DNA of 64,000 nucleotides, from the NCBI GenBank assembly GCA_902574695.1, contig CACGON010000003.1, positions 1 to 64,000 of the forward strand. Reading direction: 5' to 3'. This document shows, piece after piece, positions 7,869-60,295 of this stretch. Below the pieces are notes generated by a model, which did not search any database, was not told where the DNA came from, and worked only from the letters and a program-made list of their open reading frames with translations. Within the stretch, counting starts at the first letter, position 1, and each line of letters starts with the position of its first letter. A program made the translations under genes and the position numbers. This DNA is from an uncultured Pelagibacteraceae bacterium (GTDB lineage Bacteria > Pseudomonadota > Alphaproteobacteria > Pelagibacterales > Pelagibacteraceae).

Positions 7869-7875
7869 CTTTTTT

Positions 7876-11675: not shown

Positions 11676-11772
11676 AGAACTCGTTAAACTTGCAGTTGAA
11701 TTCAATTTACTTATAAATTTTATATATAAAAAATATTATATACTTCTGACGCACAAAAAATAAAGTTGAAAT

Positions 11773-13098: not shown

Positions 13099-13163
13099 TT
13101 ATCTAAGTAGACATACGTTTTTTTTTCAGTTACCTTTTTGATCATAAAATTCTAAGGGGGAAA

Positions 13164-14633: not shown

Positions 14634-14659
14634 TCTTTTAATTTTTAGAGGAAAAAAAT

Positions 14660-17849: not shown

Positions 17850-17857
17850 TTTTTAAA

Positions 17858-18274: not shown

Positions 18275-18410
18275 AATCTATAAATATTTAGTCTACCTCA
18301 GGTTGTTTTAATATTTATTATTGCCGTTCGTAGTGGGTTTTTAAGCATTGTACTAACTTTCTTAAACATTATTATAATTTCTTTGTTTAAACAAAATAGG
18401 GAGGTTAGAC

Positions 18411-37506: not shown

Positions 37507-37508
37507 AA

Positions 37509-38762
37509 TTATCCTAATTTAATATTATCAATACCCACGAGTTTGTTATAAATCCAATAAATAGCTAATACCCCAGCTAAAAGCATAAGCCCCATTGCTG
37601 AAGCAAAACTCCAATCCAATGTACTTTTCATATGGAAAGCGATTTGGTTACTTATTAATGTCCCTGAAGCACCACCTACTAATGCTGGTGTTATGTAGTA
37701 ACCAATTGCCAAAATAAATACTAATAAACAGCCAGCACCTATACCTGGTATAGTCAATGGAAAATAAACTTTCCAAAAAGCTACGAAAGGTGTTCCGCCT
37801 AATGATTTTCCAGCTCTCATTAAGCTTGGTGAAATAGTTTTCATCACACTGTACAAAGGTAAGACCATGAACGGCAATAGAATTTGTGTCATTGCAACAT
37901 AAGTTCCTGTTTTGTTATACATCATTTCTGGTCTTGCATCGTCTGCTACCAATCCAATAAATACAAAAAAATCATTAACCACTCCTTGTTGCTGAAGTAA
38001 AATCATCCAACTAGCTGTTCGAACAAGAAGAGATGTCCAAAATGGAAGTAGCACACATATCATTAATAGGTTGCTATATTTCATAGGTAGAGTTGCAAGT
38101 AAATGTGCTATTGGATATGCCATTAAAAAACATAATAGAGTTACAAAGAAAGCAACTTCCAATGTTCTTAACCACAATACTCTGTGAATTTGTCTGTCTT
38201 CAGGAACATTCACAATTTTTCCATCCTCGTTTTCATACATATCTATTCCTTTGAGATATTTTGCATTTGTAAACGAAGCTGATCTTCTTTGAATTGCTCT
38301 CCAGTATTCTACGTTTGCCCAACGCTTGTGAACACCCATTATTTGTTCTTTATAATTTCCCTCTTCAAACTTTTTCATTTTTCGTTTCAGTTTTTTCAAA
38401 ATACTTTTGAAGCCATTTTTTTCATAATTGAGTTGTGTTGCTAATTTACCGAAAGTTTTTTCTTCAACTAAAAGTTTATAGTCGAAATAAAAAGCTTCAA
38501 AAACTTTCTCCGGGGGAAGTTCTTTTCCATCCCAATCTTCCATTGCTTTAAAAGTCTTAGGAAGCATATTTGTGACCATTCTGTCATCAATACTTCTCAT
38601 CAACATATCTCCAATTGGAAAAATATAAGTAATAATTAAAAATAAAAGAAGTGGAGCAACTAATAGAAAAGCTTTTAATTTATTTTTTCTCTCAGCTTTT
38701 TTTAGACTTACCTCGAGAGGAATTCCATCGGTTGTTAAAATTTTTTGTGTTTCACTGCTCAT
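37509..38762 (-). CDS. ABC transporter permease, PotB-like
   Basis: Multi-TM; AGKSLGGTPFVAFWKVYFPLTIPGIGAGCLLVF EAA motif. Confidence 0.84.
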   Translation of the reverse strand: MSSETQKILTTDGIPLEVSLKKAERKNKLKAFLLVAPLLLFLIITYIFPIGDMLMRSIDDRMVTNMLPKTFKAMEDWDGKELPPEKVFEAFYFDYKLLVEEKTFGKLATQLNYEKNGFKSILKKLKRKMKKFEEGNYKEQIMGVHKRWANVEYWRAIQRRSASFTNAKYLKGIDMYENEDGKIVNVPEDRQIHRVLWLRTLEVAFFVTLLCFLMAYPIAHLLATLPMKYSNLLMICVLLPFWTSLLVRTASWMILLQQQGVVNDFFVFIGLVADDARPEMMYNKTGTYVAMTQILLPFMVLPLYSVMKTISPSLMRAGKSLGGTPFVAFWKVYFPLTIPGIGAGCLLVFILAIGYYITPALVGGASGTLISNQIAFHMKSTLDWSFASAMGLMLLAGVLAIYWIYNKLVGIDNIKLG

Positions 38763-38766
38763 AAAT

Positions 38767-38797
38767 AAAAAAGGGCGGTTATAAATAACCGCCCTAA
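38767..38797 (-). terminator. hairpin terminator/attenuator between binding-protein and permease genes
   Basis: GGGCGGTTAT-AA-ATAACCGCCC perfect 10-bp stem followed by a T-rich tract on the minus strand. Confidence 0.85.
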
Positions 38798-38832
38798 ATA
38801 TATTATATAATTTTAGTCTTTAAAACTTAAAA

Positions 38833-39948
38833 TTATAGTCCTGCTTTCATAGCTTCCCATTTTTCTCCAAGCTCTGTACCGTTATCAGCCCAGAAAATAG
38901 GGTCAACTAAGAAGTAGTTTTTAGTGTTTTGTTTAGCTGTTGGCATTTGTGGTACCATGTTTGTTTTACCATCTTTATACCAAGGCTCTCCAGCTTCCAT
39001 AACTTTAAGAGATGATTTTCTCCAAGGAGCGTAAGCAATATACTTAGCACTTCCAGCTAACATCTCTGTACTTGTCATCATCGCTAGAGCTTTTTTAGCA
39101 TCAGCTTCGTTTGGTCCACCTTTAACTAGAACAAAGTATTCGTAGTCAAGACCTTGACCATCCCAAACTTGTTTGATTGGAGCGCCTTCGCCAACTTCTG
39201 CGTTGAAGAATCTTCCGTTCCAACCTGTTGCCATTACAACTTCACCTGAAACTAATAGTTCTGGTGGTTGAGCACCTGCTGACCAAAATACACATCCGCC
39301 ATTTGGATCTGTGCAAAGTGCTTTGATCTTATTCATTGCTCTTTCTACACCTGCTTCAGTTTCTAAAGCTTTATAGATTTTTGCTCCACCTTTTCCTGGT
39401 TTAATACCATCTGCTGCTAAAGCGATCTCTAAATTTGTTAAAGCGCTTTTGTAGATAGCTCTTTTTCCAGGGAATTTTTTAGTGTTAAAGAAATCTTTGA
39501 TAGTCTTTGGAGTGCCTTTAACATTCTGAGTGTTATAAGCATAGTTCCAAGAGTATAAAATATTTCCTACAGCACATTTACTTGGCATTGGAGCAAAGAA
39601 ATCTTTACTCGCTGGAGTTCCATCTGGCGCTGGTGGGAAGTCTTTGTCAAAATCAAATTCAACAAATAAACCTTCGTCACATCCAGTAATAGTATCCATT
39701 GCAAATACGTCGATTATATCCCACGTAATTTTGCCAGCCTCTTTTTGTGCTTTAATTTCTGATAGTCCACCAGAATAGTCGACCCAATTGATCTCTATTC
39801 CAAGTTTCTTAGCAGTAGGATCACCATATCCTAACTTTTGAGACTCTGTATAAGCTCCACCCCAAGATACAGCTGTAACTGCAAATGCTGATGAAGTTAT
39901 TGAAAGAGCAAAAGATAGAACTAGTAATAGTTTACTTAATTTTCTCAT
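38833..39948 (-). CDS. ABC transporter substrate-binding protein, PotD/polyamine family
   Basis: Signal peptide; 371 aa, co-directional with PotA/B/C-like genes. Confidence 0.82.
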   Translation of the reverse strand: MRKLSKLLLVLSFALSITSSAFAVTAVSWGGAYTESQKLGYGDPTAKKLGIEINWVDYSGGLSEIKAQKEAGKITWDIIDVFAMDTITGCDEGLFVEFDFDKDFPPAPDGTPASKDFFAPMPSKCAVGNILYSWNYAYNTQNVKGTPKTIKDFFNTKKFPGKRAIYKSALTNLEIALAADGIKPGKGGAKIYKALETEAGVERAMNKIKALCTDPNGGCVFWSAGAQPPELLVSGEVVMATGWNGRFFNAEVGEGAPIKQVWDGQGLDYEYFVLVKGGPNEADAKKALAMMTSTEMLAGSAKYIAYAPWRKSSLKVMEAGEPWYKDGKTNMVPQMPTAKQNTKNYFLVDPIFWADNGTELGEKWEAMKAGL

Positions 39949-40072
39949 TTATCCTCCGTTTAAACGTTTTTTTAAAAAACCGATTACAGCAAGATATAAA
40001 GTATGAGTCAACAGCCCATTTTGTAAAAAAGCCTTTTATTTTCTTACTATAGAATGATTTTAAACTTGATAA

Positions 40073-41161
40073 TTATTTCGGGTCAAGTGCTCGAGCGTCA
40101 TGACTATTCCAGCTAACATTTATCTGATTGCCAAGCTTAATATCCATATTGGCTGAACTATTTGGAACTTTTAAAATAAATTCTTTATTTCCTAAAAGAT
40201 CTAATCTTACTCTTGTATGATCCCCATGATAAATAACTTCTTCTATTTTACCTTTAAAATTATTATCCATTTTTTCTTTTGTGTTAATTAGAGCTCTCTC
40301 AGGTCTTAATGAAACAGTTGTTTTATCCCCATTCGATTTGACAGTAATAGGATTAGCTAATATTTCTGAACCGTCATTCAATTTTACTTTACATTTTTCT
40401 TGAGAAAAATTTGTTACCTGTCCACCAAAAGTATTGTTTTCACCTATAAATTCTGCAACAAAAGAATTTACTGGCTCTTCATAAAGTTTATCTGGTGATG
40501 AAAGTTGTTGAACTTTTCCATCGTTAAATACTGCAATTCTATTCGACATTGTTAATGCTTCACTTTGGTCATGTGTAACATATACAACAGTTACTCCTAT
40601 ACTTTCGTGAATGTGTTTAATTTCATATTGCATACTCTCTCTTAAATTTTTATCTAATGCACCCAAAGGTTCATCCATTAAAACAACTGCTGGATCAAAT
40701 ACAAGTGCTCTTGCAACAGCAACCCTTTGTTGCTGACCACCTGATAGTTGGCCAGGCATTCTGTTTTCAAAGCCAGTTAAAGATACCATCGATAATGCTT
40801 TATCAACTTTTTTATCTATGTCATCTTTTGGAATTTTTCTTACTCTTAATGGAAATGCTAAATTTTCATAAACTGTCATATGTGGAAACAAAGCATAATT
40901 TTGAAATACCATCCCAATACCTCTTTTGTGAGGTGGAATATTTGAAATTGGATTTGCATCTAAATATATTTCTCCATTAGTTGGAGTTTCAAAACCTGCT
41001 AACATCATTAAGCATGTAGTTTTGCCTGAACCAGATGGTCCAAGCATTGTTATAAATTCACCTTCAGCGATGTCTAAATTTAAATCTTTTACAACTAAAA
41101 CTTTTCCGTCGTAGCTTTTATCTACTTTATCAAACTTTACGAATTGTTCGTTCTTTGGCAT
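40073..41161 (-). CDS. ABC transporter ATP-binding protein, PotA-like with TOBE domain
   Basis: LGPSGSGKTTCLMMLAGFE, QLSGGQQQRVAVARALVFDP, VLMDEPLGALDKNLRE. Confidence 0.9.
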   Translation of the reverse strand: MPKNEQFVKFDKVDKSYDGKVLVVKDLNLDIAEGEFITMLGPSGSGKTTCLMMLAGFETPTNGEIYLDANPISNIPPHKRGIGMVFQNYALFPHMTVYENLAFPLRVRKIPKDDIDKKVDKALSMVSLTGFENRMPGQLSGGQQQRVAVARALVFDPAVVLMDEPLGALDKNLRESMQYEIKHIHESIGVTVVYVTHDQSEALTMSNRIAVFNDGKVQQLSSPDKLYEEPVNSFVAEFIGENNTFGGQVTNFSQEKCKVKLNDGSEILANPITVKSNGDKTTVSLRPERALINTKEKMDNNFKGKIEEVIYHGDHTRVRLDLLGNKEFILKVPNSSANMDIKLGNQINVSWNSHDARALDPK

Positions 41162-41199: not shown

Positions 41200-42366
41200 T
41201 TATTTTATGTATAAATCTCTTGAAAAATTGCAAAATAATTCACTTCCTTTGTCTGTAACCCGAACAGATTCAGATGCTTCAACACCCCATTCACCAAATT
41301 GCATTACAGCAATCATATGAAAACATACATTGGGTTGTAGTTCAGTTTTATCTCCTTTATAGATATTTAAAGTATGCTCTCCCCAGTCTGGAGGATATCC
41401 AATTCCAATTGAGTAACCAGTTCTAGACTCTTTTTTAATATTATACTTATCTAAGACTGCCCAAAAATTTTGTGCAACATCATCAGCAGTATTTCCAGGT
41501 TTGGTTGCTTCAATACCAGCATTTAAAGCTTCATTGGTTGCTTTCATAGCATCAATCTTTTTTTGCTCTGGTTTACCGAGCTGGACGGTTCTAGCCATTG
41601 GGCAGTGGTATCTTTTAACAACACCCGATAATTCTATTATAGTTGCTTCACCTTTGACAAATTTATCGTCGGTTGCTGTCAAATGTGAAGCAGAAGTTCC
41701 TTTACCTGTTGGCAATAAAGTTGCAATACTTGCGTACTCTCCTCCAACTTCTGGTGTTCCTTTAAAAAGAGCTTTTTGAATTTCACCTACAGCATCACAT
41801 TGTCTTACTCCTGGATTAATTATTTCCATCGCGACCTTCATGGCTTGTTGAGATATTTTGGCTGCAGTTTTCATATATCCTATCTCTGCATTTGATTTTA
41901 CAAGTCGCACCCAATTAACTAATCTTTCTGAGTCTTGTATTTTAGCATTTGGAAGTCCATGTTTTAATTTTTTATAACAGTAAGCTGTAAAATAATGACT
42001 ATCCATTTCAACACCAATATTTAACTTTTCCCAACCCCTTTTCTTTATTAGATCAATCAATGAGTCGTATGGATGAATAGGCCATGTATGAATATACTTT
42101 TCATCATAGACAATTATATTTTCATCTTTTAAATAAGTTTTTATATATGCACCACCGGCATCTTGAGCTCTAACAAAACATAATGGTTCCTCGCAATCAA
42201 TATGAACAATAACACATTGGGAATAATAAAATGACCAAGCATCGTAACCTGTCAAATAGTTCATGTTATTTGTATCCTGAGATATTAAAAGATCGATTCC
42301 TTTTTCCTGCATAAGTTTTTTTGTTTTGTTTAAACGATCTTTATATTCTTCTTTAGAAAAAGTCAT
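41200..42366 (-). CDS. doeA: M24 family metallopeptidase-fold hydrolase, ectoine hydrolase (DoeA)-like
   Basis: LISQDTNNMNYLTGYDAWSFYYSQ, M24 fold C-terminus; ATG at 42366 (MTFSKEEY) removes a 99-nt overlap with the upstream gene. Confidence 0.65.
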   Translation of the reverse strand: MTFSKEEYKDRLNKTKKLMQEKGIDLLISQDTNNMNYLTGYDAWSFYYSQCVIVHIDCEEPLCFVRAQDAGGAYIKTYLKDENIIVYDEKYIHTWPIHPYDSLIDLIKKRGWEKLNIGVEMDSHYFTAYCYKKLKHGLPNAKIQDSERLVNWVRLVKSNAEIGYMKTAAKISQQAMKVAMEIINPGVRQCDAVGEIQKALFKGTPEVGGEYASIATLLPTGKGTSASHLTATDDKFVKGEATIIELSGVVKRYHCPMARTVQLGKPEQKKIDAMKATNEALNAGIEATKPGNTADDVAQNFWAVLDKYNIKKESRTGYSIGIGYPPDWGEHTLNIYKGDKTELQPNVCFHMIAVMQFGEWGVEASESVRVTDKGSELFCNFSRDLYIK

Positions 42367-42367
42367 A

Positions 42368-43114
42368 TTAGTTTGAATTGAATAACCTTCCAAAACCTTT
42401 AATAGAATTATTTTTTCCAATTTTTTCAAGGGCATCCCAAATGAGAGTTTGATTACTTGAAAGGACAATTTTTTTTATTTTTTTTTCAAGTTTGTTTAAT
42501 ATTGATAAAATTGGCAAGGCGGTACATGAAACAAATAAAGCGTCAGCATTTTTGTGATCCATTTTGGTTAAAACTTTAAATAAATAGTCTGGATCAACTT
42601 TGCCAATATCTATATCTGATTTAATATTAAAATATGAATTTGAAGTAATAATAAAATTTTCACTTTTAAAAAAGTCACAAACTTCATCGTTTAATTTTTT
42701 TGGATAAGGTGTAAATAAAGATATTTTTTTAATTTTCATTTTTCTTAAAGCTTTAATTGCTGCTGTACTTGGAGTAACAACTTTTGCACTTGGTTTAGCT
42801 TTTTTAATTTTTTTTTCTATTGATTTAAAACCAGCAGCTATTGTTCCTGATGTACAGCCGTAAGCAACACAATCAATTTTTTGAGCTGGCAATAATTCTC
42901 TTGTCACTTTAGTGACTTCTTTTGACATTTTAATAAGATTTTTACTTGTTAAAGGGTTATAGCATTTAATTCTGTTAACAAAAAAATCTATTTTCTTTCC
43001 TGATATTACTTTTGTAAAATCTTTCTCAATCATAAAATCACTAGCTAACGCAATTAATCCAACTCTTGGATTTGATTTTTTTAAATATTGAGGCTTTATT
43101 TTTTTTATATACAT
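42368..43114 (-). CDS. Asp/Glu racemase/maleate isomerase superfamily protein, EutA-like
   Basis: Paired Cys in VAYGCTSGTIAAG and ALFVSCTALPI; adjacent to DoeA-like gene. Confidence 0.7.
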   Translation of the reverse strand: MYIKKIKPQYLKKSNPRVGLIALASDFMIEKDFTKVISGKKIDFFVNRIKCYNPLTSKNLIKMSKEVTKVTRELLPAQKIDCVAYGCTSGTIAAGFKSIEKKIKKAKPSAKVVTPSTAAIKALRKMKIKKISLFTPYPKKLNDEVCDFFKSENFIITSNSYFNIKSDIDIGKVDPDYLFKVLTKMDHKNADALFVSCTALPILSILNKLEKKIKKIVLSSNQTLIWDALEKIGKNNSIKGFGRLFNSN

Positions 43115-45660
43115 TATTTTTCTAAAGATTTAATATTAACAAAATCATCAGACAATTCTCTATTATTTTTTTTAATATCTTCGAAAAAATTCCATGCTAA
43201 AACAAGAATAGTATTATCTTTACCTTTAATTTTTTCTTTTGAGAATATTGGTATTTTCACTCCAGGAATAAATTTATTATGCTTTAATTTATTGTCTTCT
43301 ACAACAAAATCTATCTGACTTGATATACCAAAAAAGTTTAAAGCTGTAGTTGCTTTTGCTGGTGCACCATAACCTATTATTTTTTTTCCTGTTTTTTTTA
43401 AATTATTAATGTTTTTAAGTATATTTTCTCTAATTTTGTAAACTTTTTCACCAAATTTTTTATAAGTATTGAAATCTTTAATTCCATAATCTGTTTCCTC
43501 TTTTATTAATTTTTTAATGCTACTATCTATTTTAACTTTTTTATCTTTTTTTACGTAAATTCTGATTGATCCACCGTGGGTATTTATTTTTTCTGCTTTA
43601 TAAATCACTGCATTGAACTGATTAAAAAAGTTTTTTAGAGAGGTCAATGACCAATAATTATAGTGCTCATGATAAATGTTATCAAAAGTCAAGTCTTTGA
43701 GGGTATTCATTAAATACTGTACTTCTATAATTATAGTCCCTTTTGGAGATAATAAATTAATCATACACTCAGCCATTTCCTTAAGATTGTCAGAATGTGC
43801 AAAAACATTAGATGCTAAAACTAAGTCAGCACCTTTTTTCATTTTACTAAGATTCTTTTTGGTTAAAAAGCCATTAAATGTTTTAATTTTATTTTTATTA
43901 GCTTGTTTTGCTAAATTTTTAGCAGGTTCTACTCCCAATATTTTTTTAAAATTTAAATCTTTAAAAGGTTTAAGTGCAACACCATCATTACTACCTATAT
44001 CAATAATGTAAGATTTTTTTGAATTAAGTTTTAAATCTTTAATGTACTTAGTCGCAGCGTTAACAAAATGATCTCTAAATACTTTTGAAGTTGATGAAGT
44101 ATATAAATAATTTGAAAACATTTTTTTTGCATCAACAGCGACTGACAATTGACAGTTATGGCAATTTTCACAATAGTTGACCTCTAAAGGATATAAATCT
44201 GTTTTATCATTTTTTTTGTTAAGTAAATTGTTTGCTAAAGGTTGGTAACCTAGGGAAACTACCCTCTTTAGATTAGTTCCACCACAAGATCTACAATCGA
44301 ATTTATAACAACTCAATAACAGGTCCTTTTCTTTTTCATCAACAAAAACGTGTTTAATTGTGTGCGTTACTCCATAATTTTCATGTTCTCTCTCACCTCT
44401 TACAAGGTTTAAAAAAGTCGTATCTTTTGTAAAAACCATAGTATGAGCTACATTAGGTTTGATTATTGATAGCTGTCCTTCATTTACAACTTGTGTAATT
44501 TTTGGTGAATTAGGATTTAGTATGTCTTGAAAAACTTCAATAATTTGTCCCTTTGTAAAAAGACATTTCTGCTCCTGTTGTGGATGATAGTGATTTGCAC
44601 GTATAGTTCCTCTTTTTGAATCAATTAATCCTATCATGTTAATTGGCTCTGTTAGCTCGTGATTACTAATTTTTCCTCTGCTATCAATGTACTCTCCTGT
44701 GCCATCTCTAACATGCTCTAAATCTGTAATTAAATTTTGTTTGGACCATTTTTCAATCATTTCTTTTATGCTTTCATCTAAAGCATATAAAAATTTAAAA
44801 CCTGAATTTAAGATTTTTTTATTTGATATTGAAAAACCTAAGTTTGGCACCTCATCATTAGTCTCTTTAATTTCAATTTTTGAGTTATGCTTTTTACAAA
44901 TCTCAGCAACTTGTTTTACTGTAACTGTATCCTTGGCAAGATTAAAAGTTTCATAATTTATACTATCTTTTTCCTCCATAAATTTAAAACATCTTGCAAC
45001 ATCAATGACTGGCACTAAAGATTTGATTTGTCTTCCACCTGCAAAAAGTTTTAGAGTTCCGTTCTGTGAAGCTACTTTAGAAAAAAGGTTAGTCATAATA
45101 TCTAATCTAGTCGTGTCGGTTGAGTACCCATAAACAGATCCTAATCGAAGGATAACATAATTTTTTCCTGACTTTTTAAGTTGGTCTTCGTTTATTGCTT
45201 TTGACTTTCCATAAGCTAATACTGGTAAGGTATTTTCTTCTTCTAAAATATCTTTTTTTACCTCTTTAATTCCTTCAAATACAACGTGAGTCGAAGGAAA
45301 GATAATTTTGCAATCCTTCTTCATAACATCTAAAATATTTTGGGTTCCATCAACACCAACCTCAGAAATTTTATTTTCATGCTCTGCATTTGCTTCACTT
45401 TTAACCCTTGGTACAGATGTAATACCTGCTAAATGATGTATGATATCAGCATCATGACAATGGTTTTTAATTAATTCCTTATCTAAAATATCACCGTGTA
45501 TAAAATTCATATTCCAGTTTCTAATTTGATTTACTCTCTCTGATATAAACCTATTATCAATTACAGTTATCTCGTCATTCCAGCTATAACCTGAATATAT
45601 TTTACATAATTCGGTTCCTATGTAACCAAGCCCACCAGTAATAACGATTTTTTTTTTCAT
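43114..45660 (-). CDS. trifunctional fusion: NAD-dependent epimerase/dehydratase + WxcM/capsular-type cupin + Zn-binding SAM C-methyltransferase
   Basis: N-term ITGGLGYIGTELCKIY and YGKSK; middle cupin-like NHYHPQQEQKCLFTKGQIIEVFQD; C-term CRSCGGTNL...NYCENCHNCQ zinc motif, IDIGSNDGVALKPF SAM motif, GYGAPAKATTALNFFG. Confidence 0.85.
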   Translation of the reverse strand: MKKKIVITGGLGYIGTELCKIYSGYSWNDEITVIDNRFISERVNQIRNWNMNFIHGDILDKELIKNHCHDADIIHHLAGITSVPRVKSEANAEHENKISEVGVDGTQNILDVMKKDCKIIFPSTHVVFEGIKEVKKDILEEENTLPVLAYGKSKAINEDQLKKSGKNYVILRLGSVYGYSTDTTRLDIMTNLFSKVASQNGTLKLFAGGRQIKSLVPVIDVARCFKFMEEKDSINYETFNLAKDTVTVKQVAEICKKHNSKIEIKETNDEVPNLGFSISNKKILNSGFKFLYALDESIKEMIEKWSKQNLITDLEHVRDGTGEYIDSRGKISNHELTEPINMIGLIDSKRGTIRANHYHPQQEQKCLFTKGQIIEVFQDILNPNSPKITQVVNEGQLSIIKPNVAHTMVFTKDTTFLNLVRGEREHENYGVTHTIKHVFVDEKEKDLLLSCYKFDCRSCGGTNLKRVVSLGYQPLANNLLNKKNDKTDLYPLEVNYCENCHNCQLSVAVDAKKMFSNYLYTSSTSKVFRDHFVNAATKYIKDLKLNSKKSYIIDIGSNDGVALKPFKDLNFKKILGVEPAKNLAKQANKNKIKTFNGFLTKKNLSKMKKGADLVLASNVFAHSDNLKEMAECMINLLSPKGTIIIEVQYLMNTLKDLTFDNIYHEHYNYWSLTSLKNFFNQFNAVIYKAEKINTHGGSIRIYVKKDKKVKIDSSIKKLIKEETDYGIKDFNTYKKFGEKVYKIRENILKNINNLKKTGKKIIGYGAPAKATTALNFFGISSQIDFVVEDNKLKHNKFIPGVKIPIFSKEKIKGKDNTILVLAWNFFEDIKKNNRELSDDFVNIKSLEK

Positions 45661-45664
45661 TTTA

Positions 45665-46351
45665 TTAAAATCTATTTAGAATTATACGATATATTACACT
45701 AAAGAAATGGTAGAATTTGATTTTTTTTCCTTCTTCATGTGATCTTCCATTATAAGAAATTGGAACCTCAAAATATTTTTTTCCTTTTTTTACGGCTTCA
45801 GAAAGTATTTCTGCATGTTGATCAAAACCATTTGTCTTTAATTTATTTGGATCAACCAATTTTCTTTTGTAGCATAAATAACATGAATAAACGTCTGTAA
45901 ATGTAGTATTGTATATAATGTTGAAAGTTAATGTAAGTATTTTATTTCCAATTTTATTTAAAATATTATGTGACCTTGTATATTCACTGTAATTAAATCT
46001 TGAACCAATCACAACATCTGCATCAAAGTCATTACAAACTTTTATAAATTTTTTAAACTCTATAGGGTCGTATTCTAAATCTGCATCTTGAAATAATATA
46101 TATTCTCCAGTTGCAACCTTCAGTCCCTCTCTAACAGAAAATCCTTTTCCTGAATTTCTCTCATTATGTATTAAAGTTGTAATATAATTTTTATTTTTCT
46201 CTAATAACTCCTTTGAACCATCTGTAGATCCGTCATTAATTGTTATTATTTCATACTCTACATTTTCTACTTTTGTGTTGCTAAGTCTTTTTAAAACCCG
46301 GGCTACTGTTTTTTCTTCATTATAAACAGGTACTATTATTGAAATTTTCAT
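45665..46351 (-). CDS. family 2 glycosyltransferase (dolichyl/polyprenyl-phosphate sugar transferase-like)
   Basis: IIVPVYNEEKTVARVLKRL, ITINDGSTDGSKELL, ILFQDADLEYDP. Confidence 0.9.
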   Translation of the reverse strand: MKISIIVPVYNEEKTVARVLKRLSNTKVENVEYEIITINDGSTDGSKELLEKNKNYITTLIHNERNSGKGFSVREGLKVATGEYILFQDADLEYDPIEFKKFIKVCNDFDADVVIGSRFNYSEYTRSHNILNKIGNKILTLTFNIIYNTTFTDVYSCYLCYKRKLVDPNKLKTNGFDQHAEILSEAVKKGKKYFEVPISYNGRSHEEGKKIKFYHFFSVIYRIILNRF

Positions 46352-46590
46352 AATTAATAATGAATTTAAATTAGATCTAAATAACTATAATTCAAGACAA
46401 ATCCTTGCCCATAAAATCATGAATATTAGACTATTTAATGCATAAAATTTAAAATTACATATTAAAATTAATTGTTTCTAGGAAATGAAAAAAATGATAA
46501 TATTTATCTCACGATACATAACTCATCGTCTTGTCATTACATTACGAAAGCGGGATCGGTCGTCTTTAAATTGGTTTTTAAGGAGACTAT

Positions 46591-47757
46591 ATGAAATTCG
46601 GTTACTTTTGTAACACCACAAACTGGAATAAAAAACCTTACACTCAGCTTTTGGATGAAGCTAGAGATATTACTGAGTATTGTGATAAAAATAATTGGGA
46701 TTCAATATGGTATACCGAGCATCATTTTAATCATGAAGGAATGGAAACCTGTACAAACCCATTAATGATGTGTGCTGATGCTGCTGCAAGAACAAATCAA
46801 ATCAGATTAGGTCAAGCTTGTAATACAATTACTTTTCATAATCCAATTAGACTTGCTGAAGATATTGCAACACTCGACCAAATGTCTAAAGGGAGAGTCG
46901 AGGTTGGAATTGGTAGAGGCGTTTATGGAAGAGAAGCAGTTAATATGAATAAAGAATCGGATTTAAAAGACCAAGCAAAAAATTTTAGACTATTTTCAGA
47001 AACACTTGAAATAATGAAAAAAGCATGGTCTGAAGATTTTTTTTCTCACAAAGGTGAGTTCTATAATTATCCTTCTCCAAACTTTATTTGGCAGCATGAT
47101 ATGAGTCCTCCAAAAGAAAATATTGTTGACCTAGAAACTAATGAATTAAAAAAGATATCTGTTTTACCAAAACCATTTCAAAAACCATTTCCACCAATCT
47201 CTCAAGTTGTTGATGGAGAAAGATCAATTCAGTGGGCAGCTGAAAATGGATTAAATACAATAATGTGGATTCCAACAGTAAAAGCGTTAAAAAAAAGATT
47301 TGAAATTTTCAGAGATGCAAAATCAAAAGTTGAAAATAAAAATGTACAATTAGGTGACGGTGTAAGTTTAGTGCGAGATATGTTTGTTGCAGAAACTATG
47401 GATGAAGCAAAAAAAATGGCAGGTGAACATATCGTGAATTATATGAGATGGGTTTGTCATTGGAGAGGACTAGGAAATCATATGGATCCAGGTGAAGAGT
47501 TACCTGAGACTAAAAATAAATTAGATTTATTAAATTATGAGTTTCTTCATAAAAGAAATCTTTTATTTGGAACTCCAGAATTTGTAATTGATAAAATAAA
47601 AGAACTCCAGGAGGAACTTAATCTTCAAAGTTTACAGGTTTGGTCAAATTTTCCAGGTGTAAAACACGTGGACTGTATGAGAAGTATAAAATTGTTTACT
47701 GAGGAAGTAATGCCAAATATCAAATCTATTAATTCGGATATTCAAAGAGCGAGCTAG
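46591..47757 (+). CDS. luciferase-like (LLM class) flavin-dependent monooxygenase
   Basis: WYTEHHFNHEGMETCTNPLMMCADAAARTNQIRLGQACNTITFHNPIRLAEDIATLDQMSKGRVEVGIGRG. Confidence 0.88.
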   Translation: MKFGYFCNTTNWNKKPYTQLLDEARDITEYCDKNNWDSIWYTEHHFNHEGMETCTNPLMMCADAAARTNQIRLGQACNTITFHNPIRLAEDIATLDQMSKGRVEVGIGRGVYGREAVNMNKESDLKDQAKNFRLFSETLEIMKKAWSEDFFSHKGEFYNYPSPNFIWQHDMSPPKENIVDLETNELKKISVLPKPFQKPFPPISQVVDGERSIQWAAENGLNTIMWIPTVKALKKRFEIFRDAKSKVENKNVQLGDGVSLVRDMFVAETMDEAKKMAGEHIVNYMRWVCHWRGLGNHMDPGEELPETKNKLDLLNYEFLHKRNLLFGTPEFVIDKIKELQEELNLQSLQVWSNFPGVKHVDCMRSIKLFTEEVMPNIKSINSDIQRAS

Positions 47758-48338
47758 TGGATTTAAAATTAAGGAAATTTGCGAAATTTGTTGATAAAAC
47801 TTTTATTGAAGGAGAAAAAAAAGCAAAAGAGCCTGTTTTATTAGTGTCGGTTGCTGCAGTAATTAAAAATCCTTGGGCAGGAAGAGGTTTTGTTGAGGAT
47901 TTAAAACCAGAAATATTAGATCTTGCCCCACAAATTGGTGATCTACTTGTTCCTGAATTAATAAAAGAAATTGGAACTGGTGAAAAAGTTTTGGCTTATG
48001 GAAAAGCCGCAATGGTGGGTTTAAATGGTGAAATAGAACATGCGTCAGCTTTTATTCATACATTAAGATTTGGAAATAAATTTAGAGATGCAGTTAGTGG
48101 AACTTCTTACTTAAGTTTTACAAATACTAGGGGACCAGCAGGTTCAAAAGTTTCTATACCAATGATGCATAAGACAGATGCTGGTTTAAGACCATATTAT
48201 CTAACTCATGAGTTTACAATTCATGATGCTCCAAACGAAGATGAAATTATCATTGCTATTGGTGGAGCACCAACTGGTAGAGCGCACGCAAGAACAGGCG
48301 ATAGATATCAAGATATGAAAGAGATGGGTATTAAATAA
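47757..48338 (+). CDS. amino acid synthesis family protein (DUF1185-like)
   Basis: 193 aa, AAVIKNPWAGRGFVEDLKP, GKAAMVGLNGEIEHASAFIH; overlaps LLM gene, non-ATG (GTG) start. Confidence 0.72.
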   Translation: MDLKLRKFAKFVDKTFIEGEKKAKEPVLLVSVAAVIKNPWAGRGFVEDLKPEILDLAPQIGDLLVPELIKEIGTGEKVLAYGKAAMVGLNGEIEHASAFIHTLRFGNKFRDAVSGTSYLSFTNTRGPAGSKVSIPMMHKTDAGLRPYYLTHEFTIHDAPNEDEIIIAIGGAPTGRAHARTGDRYQDMKEMGIK

Positions 48339-48344
48339 TAGATA

Positions 48345-49130
48345 ATGCAATTCAATTTTGATCCAAATCAAAATTATTATTTATTAAATAATAATAATAC
48401 TACCCCAATAGTATTCATACATGGTGTTGGTTTAGATCAGACAATGTGGCAACCACAACTTGATTACTTTAAAAATGAAACAACTCTAACCTATGATTTA
48501 TTAGGCCATGGAAAAACTCCATTAAAAAACAATGATCTTTCAATGAATAATTTTACCGATCAATTATACGGTATTATAAAAAGTTTAAATATAAATGAGT
48601 TTAATTTAGTAGGTTTTTCGATTGGTTCTCTAATTGCTATAGAATTTGCATCTAAATATCACAATTATTTAAAATCTCTTACTTTAATTTCAACTACATA
48701 TAAAAGAAATAAAAAAGAAAGACAGAAAGTCATTGATAGAGTTAATCTTGCAAAAGAAAATAAATCAATTTCAGACCTTGCAATGAAAAGGTGGTTTTCA
48801 GATGATTATTTAATTAAAAATCCTAATGTTATCAAAAATTTAAAACAGCAACTAGAAAAATATGGAGATGATCATATTAATTTTATTAAAGCATATTCTT
48901 TATTTGCAAATTACGAAGAAGATATAAAAATAATTAATAGTATACCGACTAAAACATTGGTTATGACAGGTGCAATGGATCCGGGGTCTACACCTAAAAT
49001 GTCCAGAGAATTATGTGATGATTTAGCAAATGCTATATATGTTGAGATTAAAAATGCAAAACATCTTTGTAGTATTGAGTGCTCTGATGATGTAAATTTT
49101 CAAATAAAAAAACACATTGATAATGCCTAA
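48345..49130 (+). CDS. alpha/beta-fold hydrolase
   Basis: VFIHGVGLDQTMWQPQLDYF, LVGFSIGSLIAIEFA nucleophile elbow (GFSIGS), TGAMDPGSTP, AKHLCSIE. Confidence 0.85.
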   Translation: MQFNFDPNQNYYLLNNNNTTPIVFIHGVGLDQTMWQPQLDYFKNETTLTYDLLGHGKTPLKNNDLSMNNFTDQLYGIIKSLNINEFNLVGFSIGSLIAIEFASKYHNYLKSLTLISTTYKRNKKERQKVIDRVNLAKENKSISDLAMKRWFSDDYLIKNPNVIKNLKQQLEKYGDDHINFIKAYSLFANYEEDIKIINSIPTKTLVMTGAMDPGSTPKMSRELCDDLANAIYVEIKNAKHLCSIECSDDVNFQIKKHIDNA

Positions 49131-50604
49131 CTTAAAAACTTTTAAAATGTTTATAAATGGAAAGTGGGTTGATTCTGTCTCGAAAAAAACGTTTAACACT
49201 CTTAATCCAGAAAATAATGAGCCTTGGGCGACTGTGCCAGAAGCTAATGAGAAGGATGTTGATATTGCAGTAAAGAGTGCTCAAAAAGCTTTTGAAAAAA
49301 ACTGGTCGATACTACATCCAAAAGAACGAGCAAAATATTTATATAAAATTGCAAATGAATTAAGATTAAATGCAGAACACTTAGGAAAAATTGAGACTAT
49401 AGATACTGGAAAGTTATTTAGAGAAACTAAAACTCAAGCAAATTATATTGCTGAGTATTATGAGTACTTTGCTGGTCTTGCCGATAAAGTAGAGGGGACT
49501 GTTGTTCCAATCGATAAAAAAAATATGCAGGTTATTACAACTAGAATTCCTATTGGTGTTGTTGCTGCAATTATACCTTGGAATTCACAAATGCTTTTGA
49601 CAGCCGTAAAGCTAGCACCAGCTTTAGCGATGGGAAATACAGTTGTGATTAAAGCATCTGAATTAGCGCCTATCACATTATTAGAATTTGCAAAACTAAT
49701 TCAAAAATCAGGGTTACCAGATGGGGTTGTAAATATTATAACTGGTTTGGGAGAGCCGTGTGGAAAAGCATTAACTTCGCATGATTTAGTAGAAAGAATT
49801 GCATTTACTGGAGGTCCAGATACCGCAAAATACATAGTTAAAAATTCCTCTGAAAATTTATCGCAAGTAAGTCTAGAGTTAGGTGGTAAAAGCCCAGTAG
49901 CTGTTTTCAATGATGCAGATCAAAAAAATGCTTTAAATGGAATTACTGCAGGAATTTTTGGTGCGAGTGGACAAAGTTGTATTGCAGGTTCAAGACTTTA
50001 CATTCAATCAGAAATTTACGATGAATTTTTAGATAAATTAGTAAGTAAGGCAAAAAAAATCAAGTTGGGAAATCCCATGGATAAAGATTCACAAATGGGT
50101 CCGCTGAGTAATTTTAAACAATTAGAATTTATAGAAAAAATTGTAAAAGAAACAATTAATCAAGGTGGAAAATTAAGATGTGGAGGGAAAAGATCAAATG
50201 TATCAAATAAAGGTTATTATTATCCAGCGACAATTATAGAATGTAAAAATCATAACATGCCATCTGCTGAAAATGAGTTATTTGGACCAGTTTTATCAGT
50301 AATGAAATTTAAAACAGAGGCGGAGGTAATTGAGCTCATGAATGATAATAAATACGGATTGTCATCAGGAGTTTACTCAACAAACTTAGCAAGAGCAATG
50401 CGAGTATCAAAAGCTGTAAGGGCTGGAATTGTGTTTGTAAATACTTATAGATTAATTTCTCCTGTTGCACCGTTTGGGGGTATTAAAGACAGTGGATATG
50501 GAAAAGAGGCAGGAATAGAGTCTATTAAAGAATATACTAGATTAAAGACAACTTGGTATAACACATCTGAAGAACCTATGTCAGATCCATTTACAATGGG
50601 ATAA
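49123..50604 (+). CDS. aldehyde dehydrogenase family protein
   Basis: IPWNSQMLLTAVKLAPALAMGNTVVIKASELAP, FTGGPDTAKYI, ELGGKSPVAVF, SGQSCIAGSR; ATG at 49123 preferred over TTG at 49117. Confidence 0.9.
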   Translation: MPNLKTFKMFINGKWVDSVSKKTFNTLNPENNEPWATVPEANEKDVDIAVKSAQKAFEKNWSILHPKERAKYLYKIANELRLNAEHLGKIETIDTGKLFRETKTQANYIAEYYEYFAGLADKVEGTVVPIDKKNMQVITTRIPIGVVAAIIPWNSQMLLTAVKLAPALAMGNTVVIKASELAPITLLEFAKLIQKSGLPDGVVNIITGLGEPCGKALTSHDLVERIAFTGGPDTAKYIVKNSSENLSQVSLELGGKSPVAVFNDADQKNALNGITAGIFGASGQSCIAGSRLYIQSEIYDEFLDKLVSKAKKIKLGNPMDKDSQMGPLSNFKQLEFIEKIVKETINQGGKLRCGGKRSNVSNKGYYYPATIIECKNHNMPSAENELFGPVLSVMKFKTEAEVIELMNDNKYGLSSGVYSTNLARAMRVSKAVRAGIVFVNTYRLISPVAPFGGIKDSGYGKEAGIESIKEYTRLKTTWYNTSEEPMSDPFTMG

Positions 50605-50607
50605 TTT

Positions 50608-51465
50608 TTGAGGATTAGCCACTACTTTCTCGTAATACTGATAATGATTTTATTTGGTAGTGCATTTGTATTGGGTAAATTAGTTTTAAATACTAATGTT
50701 CCACCATTACTTTTTGGATCATTAAGAATGCTTGTTGTATTTTTGTGCTTAATTCCTTTTTTCAAATTTCAAATGCCTGGAAAGAAATATATTCAGCCTT
50801 TAATAATCTTTTCTCTATCTATGGGAGTTGGTGTTACAGGATTTACTTATTTATCTCTAGAAGAGTCAAATATAGTCTCGCCAGTGATAATTGGCTCTCA
50901 ATTAGCAATACCATTTGCAATAATTCTAAGTACTATTTTTTTAAATGAGAGTATTAATTTAAAAAAATGGTTTTTTGTGATTAGTTCTTTTATTGGAATA
51001 ATATTAATTGGCTTTGATCCTGAATTGATAAATAATATTTTCGCTTTATTTCTTACAGCTGGAATGTCTTTTTTTTATGCTATAGCAAATGTATCAGGTA
51101 GAAATTTAAATAAAATTAATGTTGTAACTACAAATACTTTTATGGCTTTGGCTGGTTTTATAATTTTAATTATTATGTCAATATTTTTTGAAGGAGATAC
51201 AATTAAGATAATTAATAATATAAATATCAAAATTTGGATTTTGATAATTTACTCAGGTCTAGTTGTTTCGGTTGGTGCTCATATGTCCTTATTTTATTTA
51301 TATAAATTTTATCCTGTTGGAAAAGTGCTACCTTTTTACTCCCTATTCCCTGTTTTTGGATTAATACAAACTTTTATTGTATTTAAAGAAATTCCAAGCT
51401 TAATGGTCACTTTGGGTGGAATTATTGTCATAGGATCTGTGTTTATTATTCAAAAAATTAAATAA
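50608..51465 (+). CDS. DMT/EamA family transporter
   Basis: 10-TM pattern in 285 aa with duplicated EamA halves; TTG start. Confidence 0.83.
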   Translation: MRISHYFLVILIMILFGSAFVLGKLVLNTNVPPLLFGSLRMLVVFLCLIPFFKFQMPGKKYIQPLIIFSLSMGVGVTGFTYLSLEESNIVSPVIIGSQLAIPFAIILSTIFLNESINLKKWFFVISSFIGIILIGFDPELINNIFALFLTAGMSFFYAIANVSGRNLNKINVVTTNTFMALAGFIILIIMSIFFEGDTIKIINNINIKIWILIIYSGLVVSVGAHMSLFYLYKFYPVGKVLPFYSLFPVFGLIQTFIVFKEIPSLMVTLGGIIVIGSVFIIQKIK

Positions 51466-53929: not shown

Positions 53930-53997
53930 CAAAAAATGTATTTATCACTTAAATACATCGCAAATGCCAAAGCCATTCCAAGTAATATATATTTCAT
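53929..53997 (-). CDS. 22-aa hydrophobic microORF between livM and the MFS gene (not in ORF track)
   Basis: Manual translation: MKYILLGMALAFAMYLSDKYIF*; ATGA overlap with livM stop and TGATG overlap with MFS start. Confidence 0.45.
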   Translation of the reverse strand: MKYILLGMALAFAMYLSDKYIF

Positions 53998-55370
53998 ATT
54001 TTTTTAACGTTTATTTTTTCCGGAATTAATCCTTTGGGACGATATCTCATTATTACTAACAGTCCAACTCCAATCATTAAAAATCTAAAATAAGGAGCGC
54101 TCTCAATTAAATGTACTTTTAATGTATTCGTTTCATCTAAATGTGTTGTAAAAAAATTGATTAAAAATAGGGCTATTGGTCCTGCCTCAACCCATAAAAA
54201 CCATACAACAAATCCTCCTAATATTGCTCCAAAATTATTTCCAGTTCCACCAACTATTACCATAACCCAAATAACAAAAGTGTATCTCATAGGCCTGTAG
54301 CTGCCAGGGGTAAACAAACCATCATTAGTTACCATCATCGCCCCTGCTAAACCAACAATTGCTGAGCCTAAAATAAAAATAAGTAAATGTTCTTTAACAA
54401 CATTTTTACCCATTGCTCCTGCTGCCTCCTCATTATCTCTTATTGCTCTCATTTTTCGTCCCCAAGGTGAGTAAAGAGCTTTTTGGGTAAGAATTAATAA
54501 AATTATTACCACGGTTAGAAATAAACCTGTTACGCAAAGTTTTACATATACAGAGGATGCGTCTATAACTAGTTGGTTTAACATATCTTTTTTATCAGAA
54601 ACAGAGCTTAATAAATTCAATTTTCCTTGATGTAATTTTTCAACTAAATTTATAAACCAAGGAGAGTTTTGAAGATCAATCTCATATGGTACGGGTCTTT
54701 TTAATCCAATTACATTTTTAACTCCTCTTGCTAACCAATCTTCATGTTTGATAATTGATACAACTATCTCAGCAATCAGTAAGGTTGCTATAGCAAGATA
54801 GTCAGCTCTTAATCCCAAAGCAATTTTTCCAACAACAAATGCTAGCCCCGCTGCGAATATTGCTCCAACAATCCACGAAAATAATACTGGCATTCCAAGA
54901 CCCCCAAGAAAACCTGTTTTTGCTGGATCCACTGATTCAATTGCTTCAATACCTGGGAAAGCTACAAGTCTTATTAAAATAATACCAATTACAATTGAAA
55001 ACGTAATTAAATAATTTCTATACTTATGATTTTTAAATTTTTTAAAAATAAATTTTACTCCAAAAACTAGACCAATTATCATTACCAAACTAGCCAAAAT
55101 ATTTAATCCTCCTGCACTCCAAGCCTCAGGGACCGGGGCAACTGAAACCAAGACAACAGCCAAACCTCCTAGAGCGGTATATCCCATTATCCCAAAATTT
55201 ATTAAGCCAGCGTATCCCCATTGAATATTTGCCCCCATAGTCATAACAGCAGATATTAAACAATAGTTTAGAATAGATAATGCAATTGACCATGATTGAA
55301 ATACTCCAACCATTATAATTAAAAATAACATAATCGAATAAGCAGCAATTATATTAGAATATTTTCTCAT
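53994..55370 (-). CDS. livM: branched-chain amino acid-type ABC transporter permease
   Basis: NIQWGYAGLINFGIMGYTALGG, ADYLAIATLLIAEI, AIRDNEEAAGAMGKNV. Confidence 0.9.
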   Translation of the reverse strand: MRKYSNIIAAYSIMLFLIIMVGVFQSWSIALSILNYCLISAVMTMGANIQWGYAGLINFGIMGYTALGGLAVVLVSVAPVPEAWSAGGLNILASLVMIIGLVFGVKFIFKKFKNHKYRNYLITFSIVIGIILIRLVAFPGIEAIESVDPAKTGFLGGLGMPVLFSWIVGAIFAAGLAFVVGKIALGLRADYLAIATLLIAEIVVSIIKHEDWLARGVKNVIGLKRPVPYEIDLQNSPWFINLVEKLHQGKLNLLSSVSDKKDMLNQLVIDASSVYVKLCVTGLFLTVVIILLILTQKALYSPWGRKMRAIRDNEEAAGAMGKNVVKEHLLIFILGSAIVGLAGAMMVTNDGLFTPGSYRPMRYTFVIWVMVIVGGTGNNFGAILGGFVVWFLWVEAGPIALFLINFFTTHLDETNTLKVHLIESAPYFRFLMIGVGLLVIMRYRPKGLIPEKINVKKI

Positions 55371-56377
55371 ATTTTTTTTCCTTCAAAAATTCCCGAAGGC
55401 CTAAACAATAAGACTATTACTAAAATTGAAAAAGAGACTGCAAATTTGTAATCAGTGGATAACAATTGAATTAAAGAGTCTGGCTCTAAAAATTCAGGCA
55501 ACAAATAAGTAAAGAACTTTTTATAGGCATAAGTTACTAAAATCTCAGCAAAAGCTATTACATAACCGCCTAAAAATGCACCATAGGGATTTCCAATTCC
55601 TCCTACAATTGCTGCAGCAAAAATTGGTAACATGTTATTAAAATAAACAAACGGTTTATAACTTTTATCTAAACCGTATAAAACTCCTCCCACTGTAGCC
55701 AAAAAACCAGCAATAATCCAAGTGATCATCACAACCCTTTTGGGGTCTATACCAGACAATAAAGCTAAATCTTCGTTGTCCGAGTATGCTCTCATACTTG
55801 TTCCAGTTTTTGTTTTATTTAAAAACCAAAATAATAAAGAAACTAAAATAATTGTAACTACAAGTGTTATAGCTTGCGTAGATTTTATAGTAAGTCCCTC
55901 GCTTAAACCTGTAATTGCTTTAAACTCAGAGGCTTTGAGAATAAATTTTTCACCATCCATAAATCTTCTATCAAATGGTCCGATAATTATTCTTATTATT
56001 GCCTGTGTAACAAACATTACACCAACGCTAACCATAGCTAACTGGACAGGTGCACTTTTGCTTTCCCTATAATATTTAAAAACAAATTTATCAATAAATA
56101 ACATATAAAAAATCATTGCGAGTATCGCTAAAGGTAAGGTCAATAAGGCTGTAGGTAAAAATCCTAGACCAACACCAATTGATTGAAAATAATATGTAAG
56201 TAAAACAGCAAACATTGTCCCAAAAGACATCATGTCACCAGTTGCAAAATTAGCAAATCGAAGTACTCCATAAATTAATGTTACAAATATTGCACCCAAC
56301 GCTAATTGTGATCCGTAAGTGATCGCAGGTATAACGGTATAATTTAGTAACAATACTAATGCATTTAATAGTTCCAA
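55367..56377 (-). CDS. livH: branched-chain amino acid-type ABC transporter permease
   Basis: QLALGAIFVTLIYGVLRFANFATGDMMSFG, GTSMRAYSDNEDLALLSGIDPKRV, ATVGGVLYGLD; 4-nt overlap with livM. Confidence 0.9.
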   Translation of the reverse strand: MELLNALVLLLNYTVIPAITYGSQLALGAIFVTLIYGVLRFANFATGDMMSFGTMFAVLLTYYFQSIGVGLGFLPTALLTLPLAILAMIFYMLFIDKFVFKYYRESKSAPVQLAMVSVGVMFVTQAIIRIIIGPFDRRFMDGEKFILKASEFKAITGLSEGLTIKSTQAITLVVTIILVSLLFWFLNKTKTGTSMRAYSDNEDLALLSGIDPKRVVMITWIIAGFLATVGGVLYGLDKSYKPFVYFNNMLPIFAAAIVGGIGNPYGAFLGGYVIAFAEILVTYAYKKFFTYLLPEFLEPDSLIQLLSTDYKFAVSFSILVIVLLFRPSGIFEGKKI

Positions 56378-56378
56378 A

Positions 56379-57086
56379 TTATCCCCCTAGAAAAGATCTT
56401 CTTACCTCTGGATCTTTAAGCAATTCGCTTCCGGATCCCTCAAATTTATTTTGTCCTGTTACTAAAACGTAGCCTCGATCAGATATGCTTAGTGCCTGCT
56501 TTGCGTTTTGTTCAACCATTATAATTCCTACATTTGTATCCTTGACTCTTAATATATGCTCAAATAATTCATCCATAACTATTGGTGAAACCCCTGCAGT
56601 AGGTTCGTCTAACATTAATACGGATGGCTTTATCATTAAAGCTCTGCCCAAAGCAACTTGCTGTCTTTGACCTCCAGATAATTGTCCAACCAATTGAGAT
56701 CTTTTTTCTCTTAATATTGGAAAAAGATTGTAAATTTCTTCAATAATGTCACTTACGTTATCATCTCTTAAAAACGCTCCAACTTCCAAATTTTCTCTCA
56801 CTGTTAGTTCAGAAAAGACATTTCTTGTTTGAGGGACAAATGAAATACCAGTTTTAACTCTTTCCTGAGGTGAAAATTTTGAAATATCATTTCCGTCAAT
56901 TTTAACAGTTCCAGATTTTAAATTAAGCAAACCAAGCATGGCCTTCATTGCAGTAGACTTACCTGCACCATTAGGTCCTAATATTGCAACTATCTCACCT
57001 CTATCAACTTTAATGGTACATGAAGATATGATGTCTGGTCCATTACCATAACCAGCAGTCATTTGATTTCCCTCAAAAAAAGACAT
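56379..57086 (-). CDS. livF: branched-chain amino acid-type ABC transporter ATPase
   Basis: ILGPNGAGKSTAMKAMLGLL, LSGGQRQQVALGRALM, MLDEPTAGVSP. Confidence 0.92.
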   Translation of the reverse strand: MSFFEGNQMTAGYGNGPDIISSCTIKVDRGEIVAILGPNGAGKSTAMKAMLGLLNLKSGTVKIDGNDISKFSPQERVKTGISFVPQTRNVFSELTVRENLEVGAFLRDDNVSDIIEEIYNLFPILREKRSQLVGQLSGGQRQQVALGRALMIKPSVLMLDEPTAGVSPIVMDELFEHILRVKDTNVGIIMVEQNAKQALSISDRGYVLVTGQNKFEGSGSELLKDPEVRRSFLGG

Positions 57087-57883
57087 TATTGATTATCCTT
57101 TATTCTTTTATTGCCTCGTCCTAAATAACTATCAATTACCCGTTCATTTTTTTTTACTTCATCAGAAGTTCCCTCAAATAAAACTGATCCTTCGGACATG
57201 ACTATAACTGGATCACACATTCTACTTATAAAGTCTATATCATGTTCAATCATACAAAATGTATAACCTTTTTCTTTATTGAGCCTGAGAATAGCTGTTC
57301 CTAAATCTTTTAATAATGTTCTATTTACTCCAGCACCAACTTCATCAAGTAAAACTAATTTCGCATCAACCATCATGGTTCTTCCAAGTTCAAGAAGTTT
57401 TTTTTGGCCACCTGATAAGTTGCCAGCAAGCTCATTTGATAGGTGTTTAAGGTTTAAGAAATCAATAACTTCTAATGCTTTTTTCTTTAACTCTTCCTCC
57501 TCTCTTTCAACTAATTTTGGTTTTATTAATGCTGTGATTAGATTTTCTCCTGATTGGTCATTAGGAACCATCATTAAATTTTCTAAAACTGTTAAATTTG
57601 AAAACTCATGAGCAATTTGAAATGTTCTTAAAAGTCCTTTTGAAAAAAGTTGATATGATGGCAGGTTAGTAATATTTTCATTATTAAATATTACACTTCC
57701 ATTTGAAGATTTTAAATTACCAGCAATTAAATTAAACAAAGTTGTTTTTCCTGATCCATTTGGTCCAATTATACCAGTTATAGATCCTTTTTTTATTTTG
57801 AGTGAGCATTTGTTTACTGCTGCTAAGCCACCAAAATATTTTGAAACTTTATCAACATGTAAAATTTCTGTTTCTCTCATCAC
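57086..57883 (-). CDS. livG: branched-chain amino acid-type ABC transporter ATPase
   Basis: IIGPNGSGKTTLFNLIAG, LSGGQKKLLELGRTMM, VLLDEVGAGVN. Confidence 0.92.
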   Translation of the reverse strand: MMRETEILHVDKVSKYFGGLAAVNKCSLKIKKGSITGIIGPNGSGKTTLFNLIAGNLKSSNGSVIFNNENITNLPSYQLFSKGLLRTFQIAHEFSNLTVLENLMMVPNDQSGENLITALIKPKLVEREEEELKKKALEVIDFLNLKHLSNELAGNLSGGQKKLLELGRTMMVDAKLVLLDEVGAGVNRTLLKDLGTAILRLNKEKGYTFCMIEHDIDFISRMCDPVIVMSEGSVLFEGTSDEVKKNERVIDSYLGRGNKRIKDNQ

Positions 57884-60174: not shown

Positions 60175-60295
60175 TTTGAGGGATAGTCCTAAAAAACCGG
60201 GAGCTAAAGATGGCTAGATAGGACTATCTAGGGTAGAATATAACATATGTATAAAAAAAAGCATTAATGATTTTTTCCAATTTTGTGGAATTAGT

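Follow-up and report, generated by a model that had tools for sequence, protein, structure and literature searches.

The window analysed here is a stretch of 64,000 nucleotides (contig CACGON010000003.1, positions 1 to 64,000) from a Pelagibacter-like (SAR11) source genome of 1.04 Mb, which comprises 32 contigs and is 88% complete. Positions 46591 to 51465 hold a module of five genes encoding a luciferase-like monooxygenase (LLM), a DUF1185 protein, an alpha/beta hydrolase, an aldehyde dehydrogenase (ALDH), and an EamA transporter. An earlier note on this DNA, made from the letters alone, had described five packed co-directional genes; the coordinates match, all five lie on the + strand, and their Pfam families were confirmed. 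The module and its leader are laid out as follows.

46352..46590, + strand: intergenic leader upstream of LLM, with a Shine-Dalgarno sequence (AAGGAG) before LLM
46591..47757, + strand: LLM flavin monooxygenase of the luciferase-alpha-like subfamily (PF00296, Bac_luciferase, 150 bits)
47757..48338, + strand: DUF1185/AA_synth protein of the TgnF family, LLM-linked clade (PF06684, 214 bits), with a GTG start
48345..49130, + strand: alpha/beta hydrolase, 3-oxoadipate enol-lactonase (PcaD)/RutD-like (PF00561, Abhydrolase_1, 67 bits)
49123..50604, + strand: ALDH (PF00171, Aldedh, 542 bits)
50608..51465, + strand: EamA/DMT-family transporter, an optional member (PF00892, EamA, 87 bits)

All five scores lie far above the cut-offs (gathering score 27.9 for LLM; 27 for DUF1185). 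Neighboring genes overlap or are at most 6 bases apart: the LLM stop and the DUF1185 GTG start overlap in TAGTG, 6 bases separate DUF1185 from the hydrolase, and EamA starts 3 bases past ALDH. For ALDH, the open reading frame tool gave a TTG start at 49117, but the ATG at 49123, which overlaps the end of the hydrolase gene, is the more probable start. An Rfam scan gave no match in the leader or the module, and scans for promoters and terminators gave matches no more numerous than in shuffled sequence.

Conservation of the module and its insertion site

A scan of named genomes for the module yielded 80 loci, and gene order was counted over the 68 that extend at least 4.5 kb beyond LLM. The exact order LLM-DUF1185-hydrolase-ALDH was found in 64 of these 68, the median gaps being -1, 4, and 0 bases. 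The order is strongly conserved, far beyond chance, and identifies the genes as an operon-like unit; the co-conservation that the earlier note had proposed to check by neighborhood analysis is thus borne out. One of the four exceptions (locus L076) probably arose because the hydrolase was lost by gene calling in a GC-rich metagenome-assembled genome (MAG). EamA follows ALDH in 17 of the 64 loci; Liv or other genes occupy this place in the remaining loci, depending on the lineage. In the sister family f2 and in the Pelagibacter lineages G004, G023, G053, and G063, a thiamine diphosphate (ThDP)-dependent enzyme of ~565 residues is encoded between LLM and DUF1185. Its nearest models, both below cut-off, are acetolactate synthase and sulfoacetaldehyde acetyltransferase, and the ThDP enzymes found beside LLM in some lineages are of acetolactate synthase-like and benzaldehyde lyase-like types. 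The source genome is regarded as lacking this gene, because its homologues there are only ~30% identical and belong to the acetolactate synthase type.

Related operons also exist outside SAR11. In Aestuariispira insulae, the row consists of LysR, a Rieske oxygenase, a flavin reductase, LLM (~54% identity), DUF1185 (62%), hydrolase, and ALDH. Two marine Actinomycetota MAGs carry EutA-like, M24, LLM (~55%), DUF1185, and ALDH genes (L076, 6627-10751; L075, 306-4151), and in one of the two a hydrolase gene was also called; the EutA-like/M24 pair thus recurs beside LLM. In a Rhodospirillales MAG, the set comprises LLM, hydrolase, ALDH, and flavin reductase genes. More distant operons, with five enzymes and a regulator (GntR, DUF1185, hydrolase, flavin reductase, LLM, ALDH), are located on plasmids of rhizobia, Leisingera, Thioclava, Pantoea, and Acinetobacter; for the Acinetobacter copy, an FdhF-family gene ~2.6 kb from the start of the record is close to the operon when the origin is crossed. 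Mesorhizobium and R. leguminosarum have a third arrangement, which includes a carboxymuconolactone-decarboxylase-family gene.

Within Pelagibacterales, LLM is present in 52 of 150 relatives, and the module is an accessory islet at a variable insertion site. The genes around this site in the window are the following.

41200..43114, - strand: DoeA-like M24 hydrolase and EutA-like protein; left flank, outside the module, near-core
43114..46351, - strand: epimerase/methyltransferase fusion and GT2 genes, inserted separately between EutA and LLM in the source genome
51539..52729, + strand: Liv-type substrate-binding protein (PF13458); right flank, outside the module, near-core

The DoeA-like hydrolase, which is the left neighbor beside the EutA-like gene, occurs in 121 of the 150 relatives with or without LLM, and the Liv binding protein on the right occurs in 107, many of which lack the module. 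The distance from DoeA to LivJ was measured where both share one contig. In nine LLM-negative genomes it is 864-887 bases, which leaves room for EutA alone, and EutA abuts LivJ; in five LLM-positive genomes it is 5.8 kb, enough for EutA and the five module genes. Across Pelagibacter, the EutA-LivJ site is empty or holds 2.8 kb, the 5.8 kb module, or inserts of 23-29 kb without LLM. The site is therefore considered variable, since inserts of many types and sizes lie between the same flanks. Gene content, order, co-conservation, and the insertion site are direct observations, as are the family and clade memberships and the fold class described below.

Several further features of the window were noted. 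The DoeA-like and EutA-like proteins, a near-core pair in Pelagibacterales, reach 465 of 613 and 196 of 318 cut-off bits, respectively, and the DoeA-like protein aligns over its full length to a solved ectoine hydrolase (6twj, 340 bits). PotABCD is encoded at 36652-41161, and PotD is very close to a solved SAR11-type polyamine-binding protein (8jv1, 594 bits). An rhtB small RNA (RF01814, 78.9 bits) lies at 60168-60246 on the - strand, upstream of a LysE/RhtB-family gene.

Relationships of the encoded proteins

The model of LLM (predicted local distance difference test, pLDDT, 89) has the TIM-barrel LLM fold and matches luciferase-family structures with template modeling (TM) scores of 0.71-0.74, and its EHH and RG motifs are invariant across 20 relatives. 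The closest solved folds are luciferases, RslO1, and 3,6-diketocamphane monooxygenase. By family and fold comparison, LLM is nearest to bacterial luciferase, RslO1, and type II Baeyer-Villiger monooxygenases, and not to F420 enzymes or RutA. In the LLM tree, a clade of SAR11, Aestuariispira, and Actinomycetota is split from the clade of the plasmid operons by long, supported branches. A flavin reductase gene adjoins the orthologous LLM gene in Aestuariispira and in the Rhodospirillales MAG (OFTM364); LLM is therefore predicted to be a two-component enzyme dependent on reduced flavin mononucleotide (FMN). FMN reductases of PF03358 are present in module-bearing Pelagibacter and are candidate partners for LLM.

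DUF1185, which the earlier note regarded as having no assigned role, is the family of TgnF of the trigonelline (tgn) pathway and of HcdD of a hydroxycoumarin cluster (PMC7913881). In A. baylyi, TgnF stimulates TgnE-dependent oxidation of succinate semialdehyde (PMC7913881). The copy in the module is the only one in the source genome. All LLM-linked members (17 of 17 rows) fall into one clade of the DUF1185 tree with support of 100/100; BB2672, SPO0826, and a pair beside 6-hydroxynicotinate reductase lie outside it. That pair, two tandem DUF1185 genes in Sulfitobacter (L158, 5083-8585), places the family in a second N-heterocycle setting. Two structures have been solved for this family. The equivalents of the BB2672 pocket residues His93 and Arg176 are invariant, and that of Glu90 is kept in the protein of the window and is Ser in the sister family f2. 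DUF1185 may act as an enzyme. Its identity is 54-62% across operon types, where that of LLM drops to ~27%.

The hydrolase is below the cut-offs of the NCBIfam models for PcaD and RutD. Its nearest solved structure is PcaD (2xua), with (E)-2-(acetamidomethylene)succinate (E-2AMS) hydrolase (3kxp) also matched, and the PcaD enol-lactonase is the nearest solved relative in all three operon types tested. ALDH exceeds no equivalog cut-off and is 41-50% identical to the ALDHs of the plasmid-borne operons.

Proposed pathway and candidate substrates

We consider it moderately probable that the five genes constitute a SAR11 accessory catabolic islet of the tgn pathway type, in which a substrate is oxygenated, hydrolyzed, and oxidized. 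Every reaction in this scheme, like the substrate, is predicted by analogy. Reduced FMN for LLM would be supplied by a reductase encoded elsewhere, and LLM would insert oxygen into a small ring, either cleaving it or carrying out a Baeyer-Villiger-type step. The PcaD-like hydrolase would then open the resulting lactone, or deacylate or open an enamide, and ALDH would convert the freed semialdehyde to a dicarboxylate that enters central metabolism. DUF1185 may handle an enol or enamine intermediate, and EamA, where present, may transport the substrate or the product. The earlier note had likewise read the module as catabolism by oxygenation, hydrolysis, and aldehyde oxidation. This part stands, in that gene order and families fit and the unit is co-conserved; the nitrogenous or heterocyclic substrate named there is plausible by analogy only, and the fold kin of LLM (luciferases and type II Baeyer-Villiger monooxygenases) include oxidizers of non-nitrogenous carbonyls. 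The most likely substrate class would be a phytoplankton N heterocycle, and the leading candidates would be N-methylated pyridine carboxylates, with homarine first and trigonelline second.

Four observations weigh against a pathway of the tgn type. SAR11 LLM belongs to a different subfamily from its counterpart in the tgn-like plasmid operons, with which it shares only 24-33% (~27%) identity. No flavin reductase of PF01613 was found in the islet or in the eight Pelagibacter genomes tested (G000, G012, G081, G004, G063, G062, G022, G054), two of which are complete; 13 of 14 control genomes were positive. Among the core genes of the module, the hydrolase varies most within Pelagibacter (52-62%, vs 74-90% for LLM), and the ThDP enzyme of some lineages is superfluous to the tgn scheme. 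A more far-reaching proposal, which we hold only tentatively, is that SAR11 LLM represents a new subfamily of ring-opening oxygenases that depend on FMN and have lost their dedicated reductase. Together with DUF1185, it would degrade a plankton metabolite that is abundant but is neither homarine nor trigonelline, and the ThDP lineages would take a further substrate variant.

A special case of the tgn-type pathway would make the islet the SAR11 version of a homarine (N-methylpicolinate) pathway via N-methylglutamate and N-methylglutamate dehydrogenase (Mgd), which we judge rather unlikely when taken on its own. Its scheme, to which we give no greater credence, has LLM cleaving C5-C6, ALDH oxidizing C5, and the hydrolase removing the N-formyl group. 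As derived in this analysis, C5-C6 cleavage, C5 oxidation, and loss of C6 as formate would leave the carbon skeleton of N-methylglutamate, and homarine catabolism involves Mgd (PMC13390433). TgnAB is thought to be sterically unable to act on homarine (PMC8269262), and therefore a different LLM would be expected. In Pelagibacter, LLM co-occurs with the flavin adenine dinucleotide (FAD) gene of the N-methylglutamate cluster (28/36 vs 25/54; odds ratio 4.1, p ~0.004), an association that holds with completeness controlled and is uncorrected for kinship, and DoeA, used as a control, shows no association with this gene. On the other hand, the FAD gene is only a putative N-methylglutamate dehydrogenase gene, and coupling to N-methylglutamate was rejected as a general rule: LLM shows no association with the FAD gene in the sister family f2 (1/15), and three LLM-positive genomes that are 90-99% complete (G022, G092, G093) lack an MgsC homologue. 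Furthermore, LLM orthologues of at least 50% identity occur in just 1 of 386 genomes sampled across the class, matches on roseobacter plasmids being far weaker, and a MAG from deep Lake Baikal (L080) bears the module. Ferrer-Gonzalez and colleagues reportedly described in Nat Microbiol in 2026 a homarine operon, homABCDER, with SAR11 among its carriers, and that paper may already describe the pathway of the islet. In favor of this reading, the wider operon type likewise consists of five enzymes and a regulator. In the window, a methylated-amine cluster lies ~28 kb from the module (1858-19811) and encodes a Tmm-like flavin monooxygenase, a trimethylamine N-oxide demethylase (above the NCBIfam cut-off), an FAD enzyme, GMAS-like and MgsABC-like proteins, and Amt.

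A Baeyer-Villiger-type route seems unlikely; its substrate would be a cyclic ketone, enone, or aldehyde without nitrogen, from which LLM would form a lactone or ester, the hydrolase would open it, and ALDH would oxidize the product. It would agree with the nearest folds of LLM (luciferases, RslO1, diketocamphane monooxygenase), with PcaD enol-lactonase as the closest relative of the hydrolase, and with the resemblance of the LLM-adjacent ThDP enzymes to acetolactate synthase and benzaldehyde lyase types. However, DUF1185 is documented in the trigonelline pathway and, for another clade, near 6-hydroxynicotinate reductase genes, which points to N-heterocycles, and among the module's neighbors in relatives are Rieske betaine-type oxygenase and amino-acid-oxidase-like genes, which likewise argue against a non-nitrogenous substrate.

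That the module serves trigonelline (N-methylnicotinate) itself, as a divergent tgn operon, is very unlikely. Its families match TgnB and TgnF, and TgnC and TgnD are an ALDH and a hydrolase, respectively. However, SAR11 LLM belongs to a subfamily distinct from that of the plasmid tgn-like operons, and the source genome has no PF01613 match for a TgnA-type reductase. Methylamine, the expected product, would be barred from the GmaS/Mgs route in the LLM-positive genomes without MgsC, and trigonelline is scarce in seawater relative to homarine.

Least probable of all is a direct role of the Liv transporter and the DoeA/EutA pair in the pathway. In many genomes these genes do border the module, and EutA-like and M24 genes head the LLM operon in the two Actinomycetota MAGs, but the flanking genes occur regardless of LLM presence, EutA directly abuts LivJ in the nine LLM-negative genomes, and the actinobacterial M24 protein is ~20% identical to SAR11 DoeA, with no DoeA-type match. 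Because LLM-negative genomes also contain them, and given the gaps measured at the empty site, both were ruled out as module members. As in the earlier note, the Liv binding protein (from 51539) follows the module and the LivM/H/F/G genes lie convergent nearby (53994-57883); a major facilitator superfamily gene lies between. The note's link from this transporter to the module did not hold, as the transporter is near-core and marks the edge of the insertion site. A ligand screen of the Liv binding protein would therefore be uninformative about the module.

Significance and comparison with known systems

SAR11 is described in two papers as the most abundant group of heterotrophs in surface seawater (PMC3160333, PMC12636525), yet a substrate has been assigned to few of its accessory catabolic genes. 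Because the islet is compact (5 kb), occurs in about one third of the sampled species, and has a defined empty site in sister genomes, a substrate screen is feasible. If the pathway is indeed for homarine or another plankton osmolyte, the islet would become a marker gene for carbon and nitrogen flux, and DUF1185 would gain testable chemistry.

The tgn pathway of Acinetobacter baylyi ADP1, reportedly described by Perchat in 2018, resembles the islet at the family level only, in LLM (TgnB), DUF1185 (TgnF), the ALDH and alpha/beta hydrolase steps, and the logic of oxygenation, oxidation, and hydrolysis. SAR11 LLM does not group with the clade of the tgn-like plasmid operons, and the islet has no adjacent flavin reductase or succinate-semialdehyde dehydrogenase, has EamA as its transporter, and has a ThDP variant. 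The GntR plasmid operons of Acinetobacter, Pantoea, Leisingera, Thioclava, and rhizobia share four enzyme families with it, with DUF1185 54-58% and ALDH ~50% identical, but differ in the deep split of LLM in the tree, in gene order, and in having their own flavin reductase and regulator.

The Rut uracil pathway of E. coli also combines an LLM monooxygenase with a PcaD/RutD-like hydrolase, and RutC belongs to the Bacillus-chorismate-mutase-like fold class, which is shared with a module protein. However, the module genes include no homologues of RutB, RutC, RutE, RutF, or RutG, and RutA is a far outgroup of LLM. Type II Baeyer-Villiger monooxygenases and bacterial luciferase share with SAR11 LLM the fold and the class of FMN-site motif, but only ~20-23% identity. 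The homarine (hom) pathway is possibly encoded by the same operon, and genes of the N-methylglutamate pathway lie 28 kb away in the window; if the hom genes are orthologous to those of the islet, the pathway of the islet is already known.

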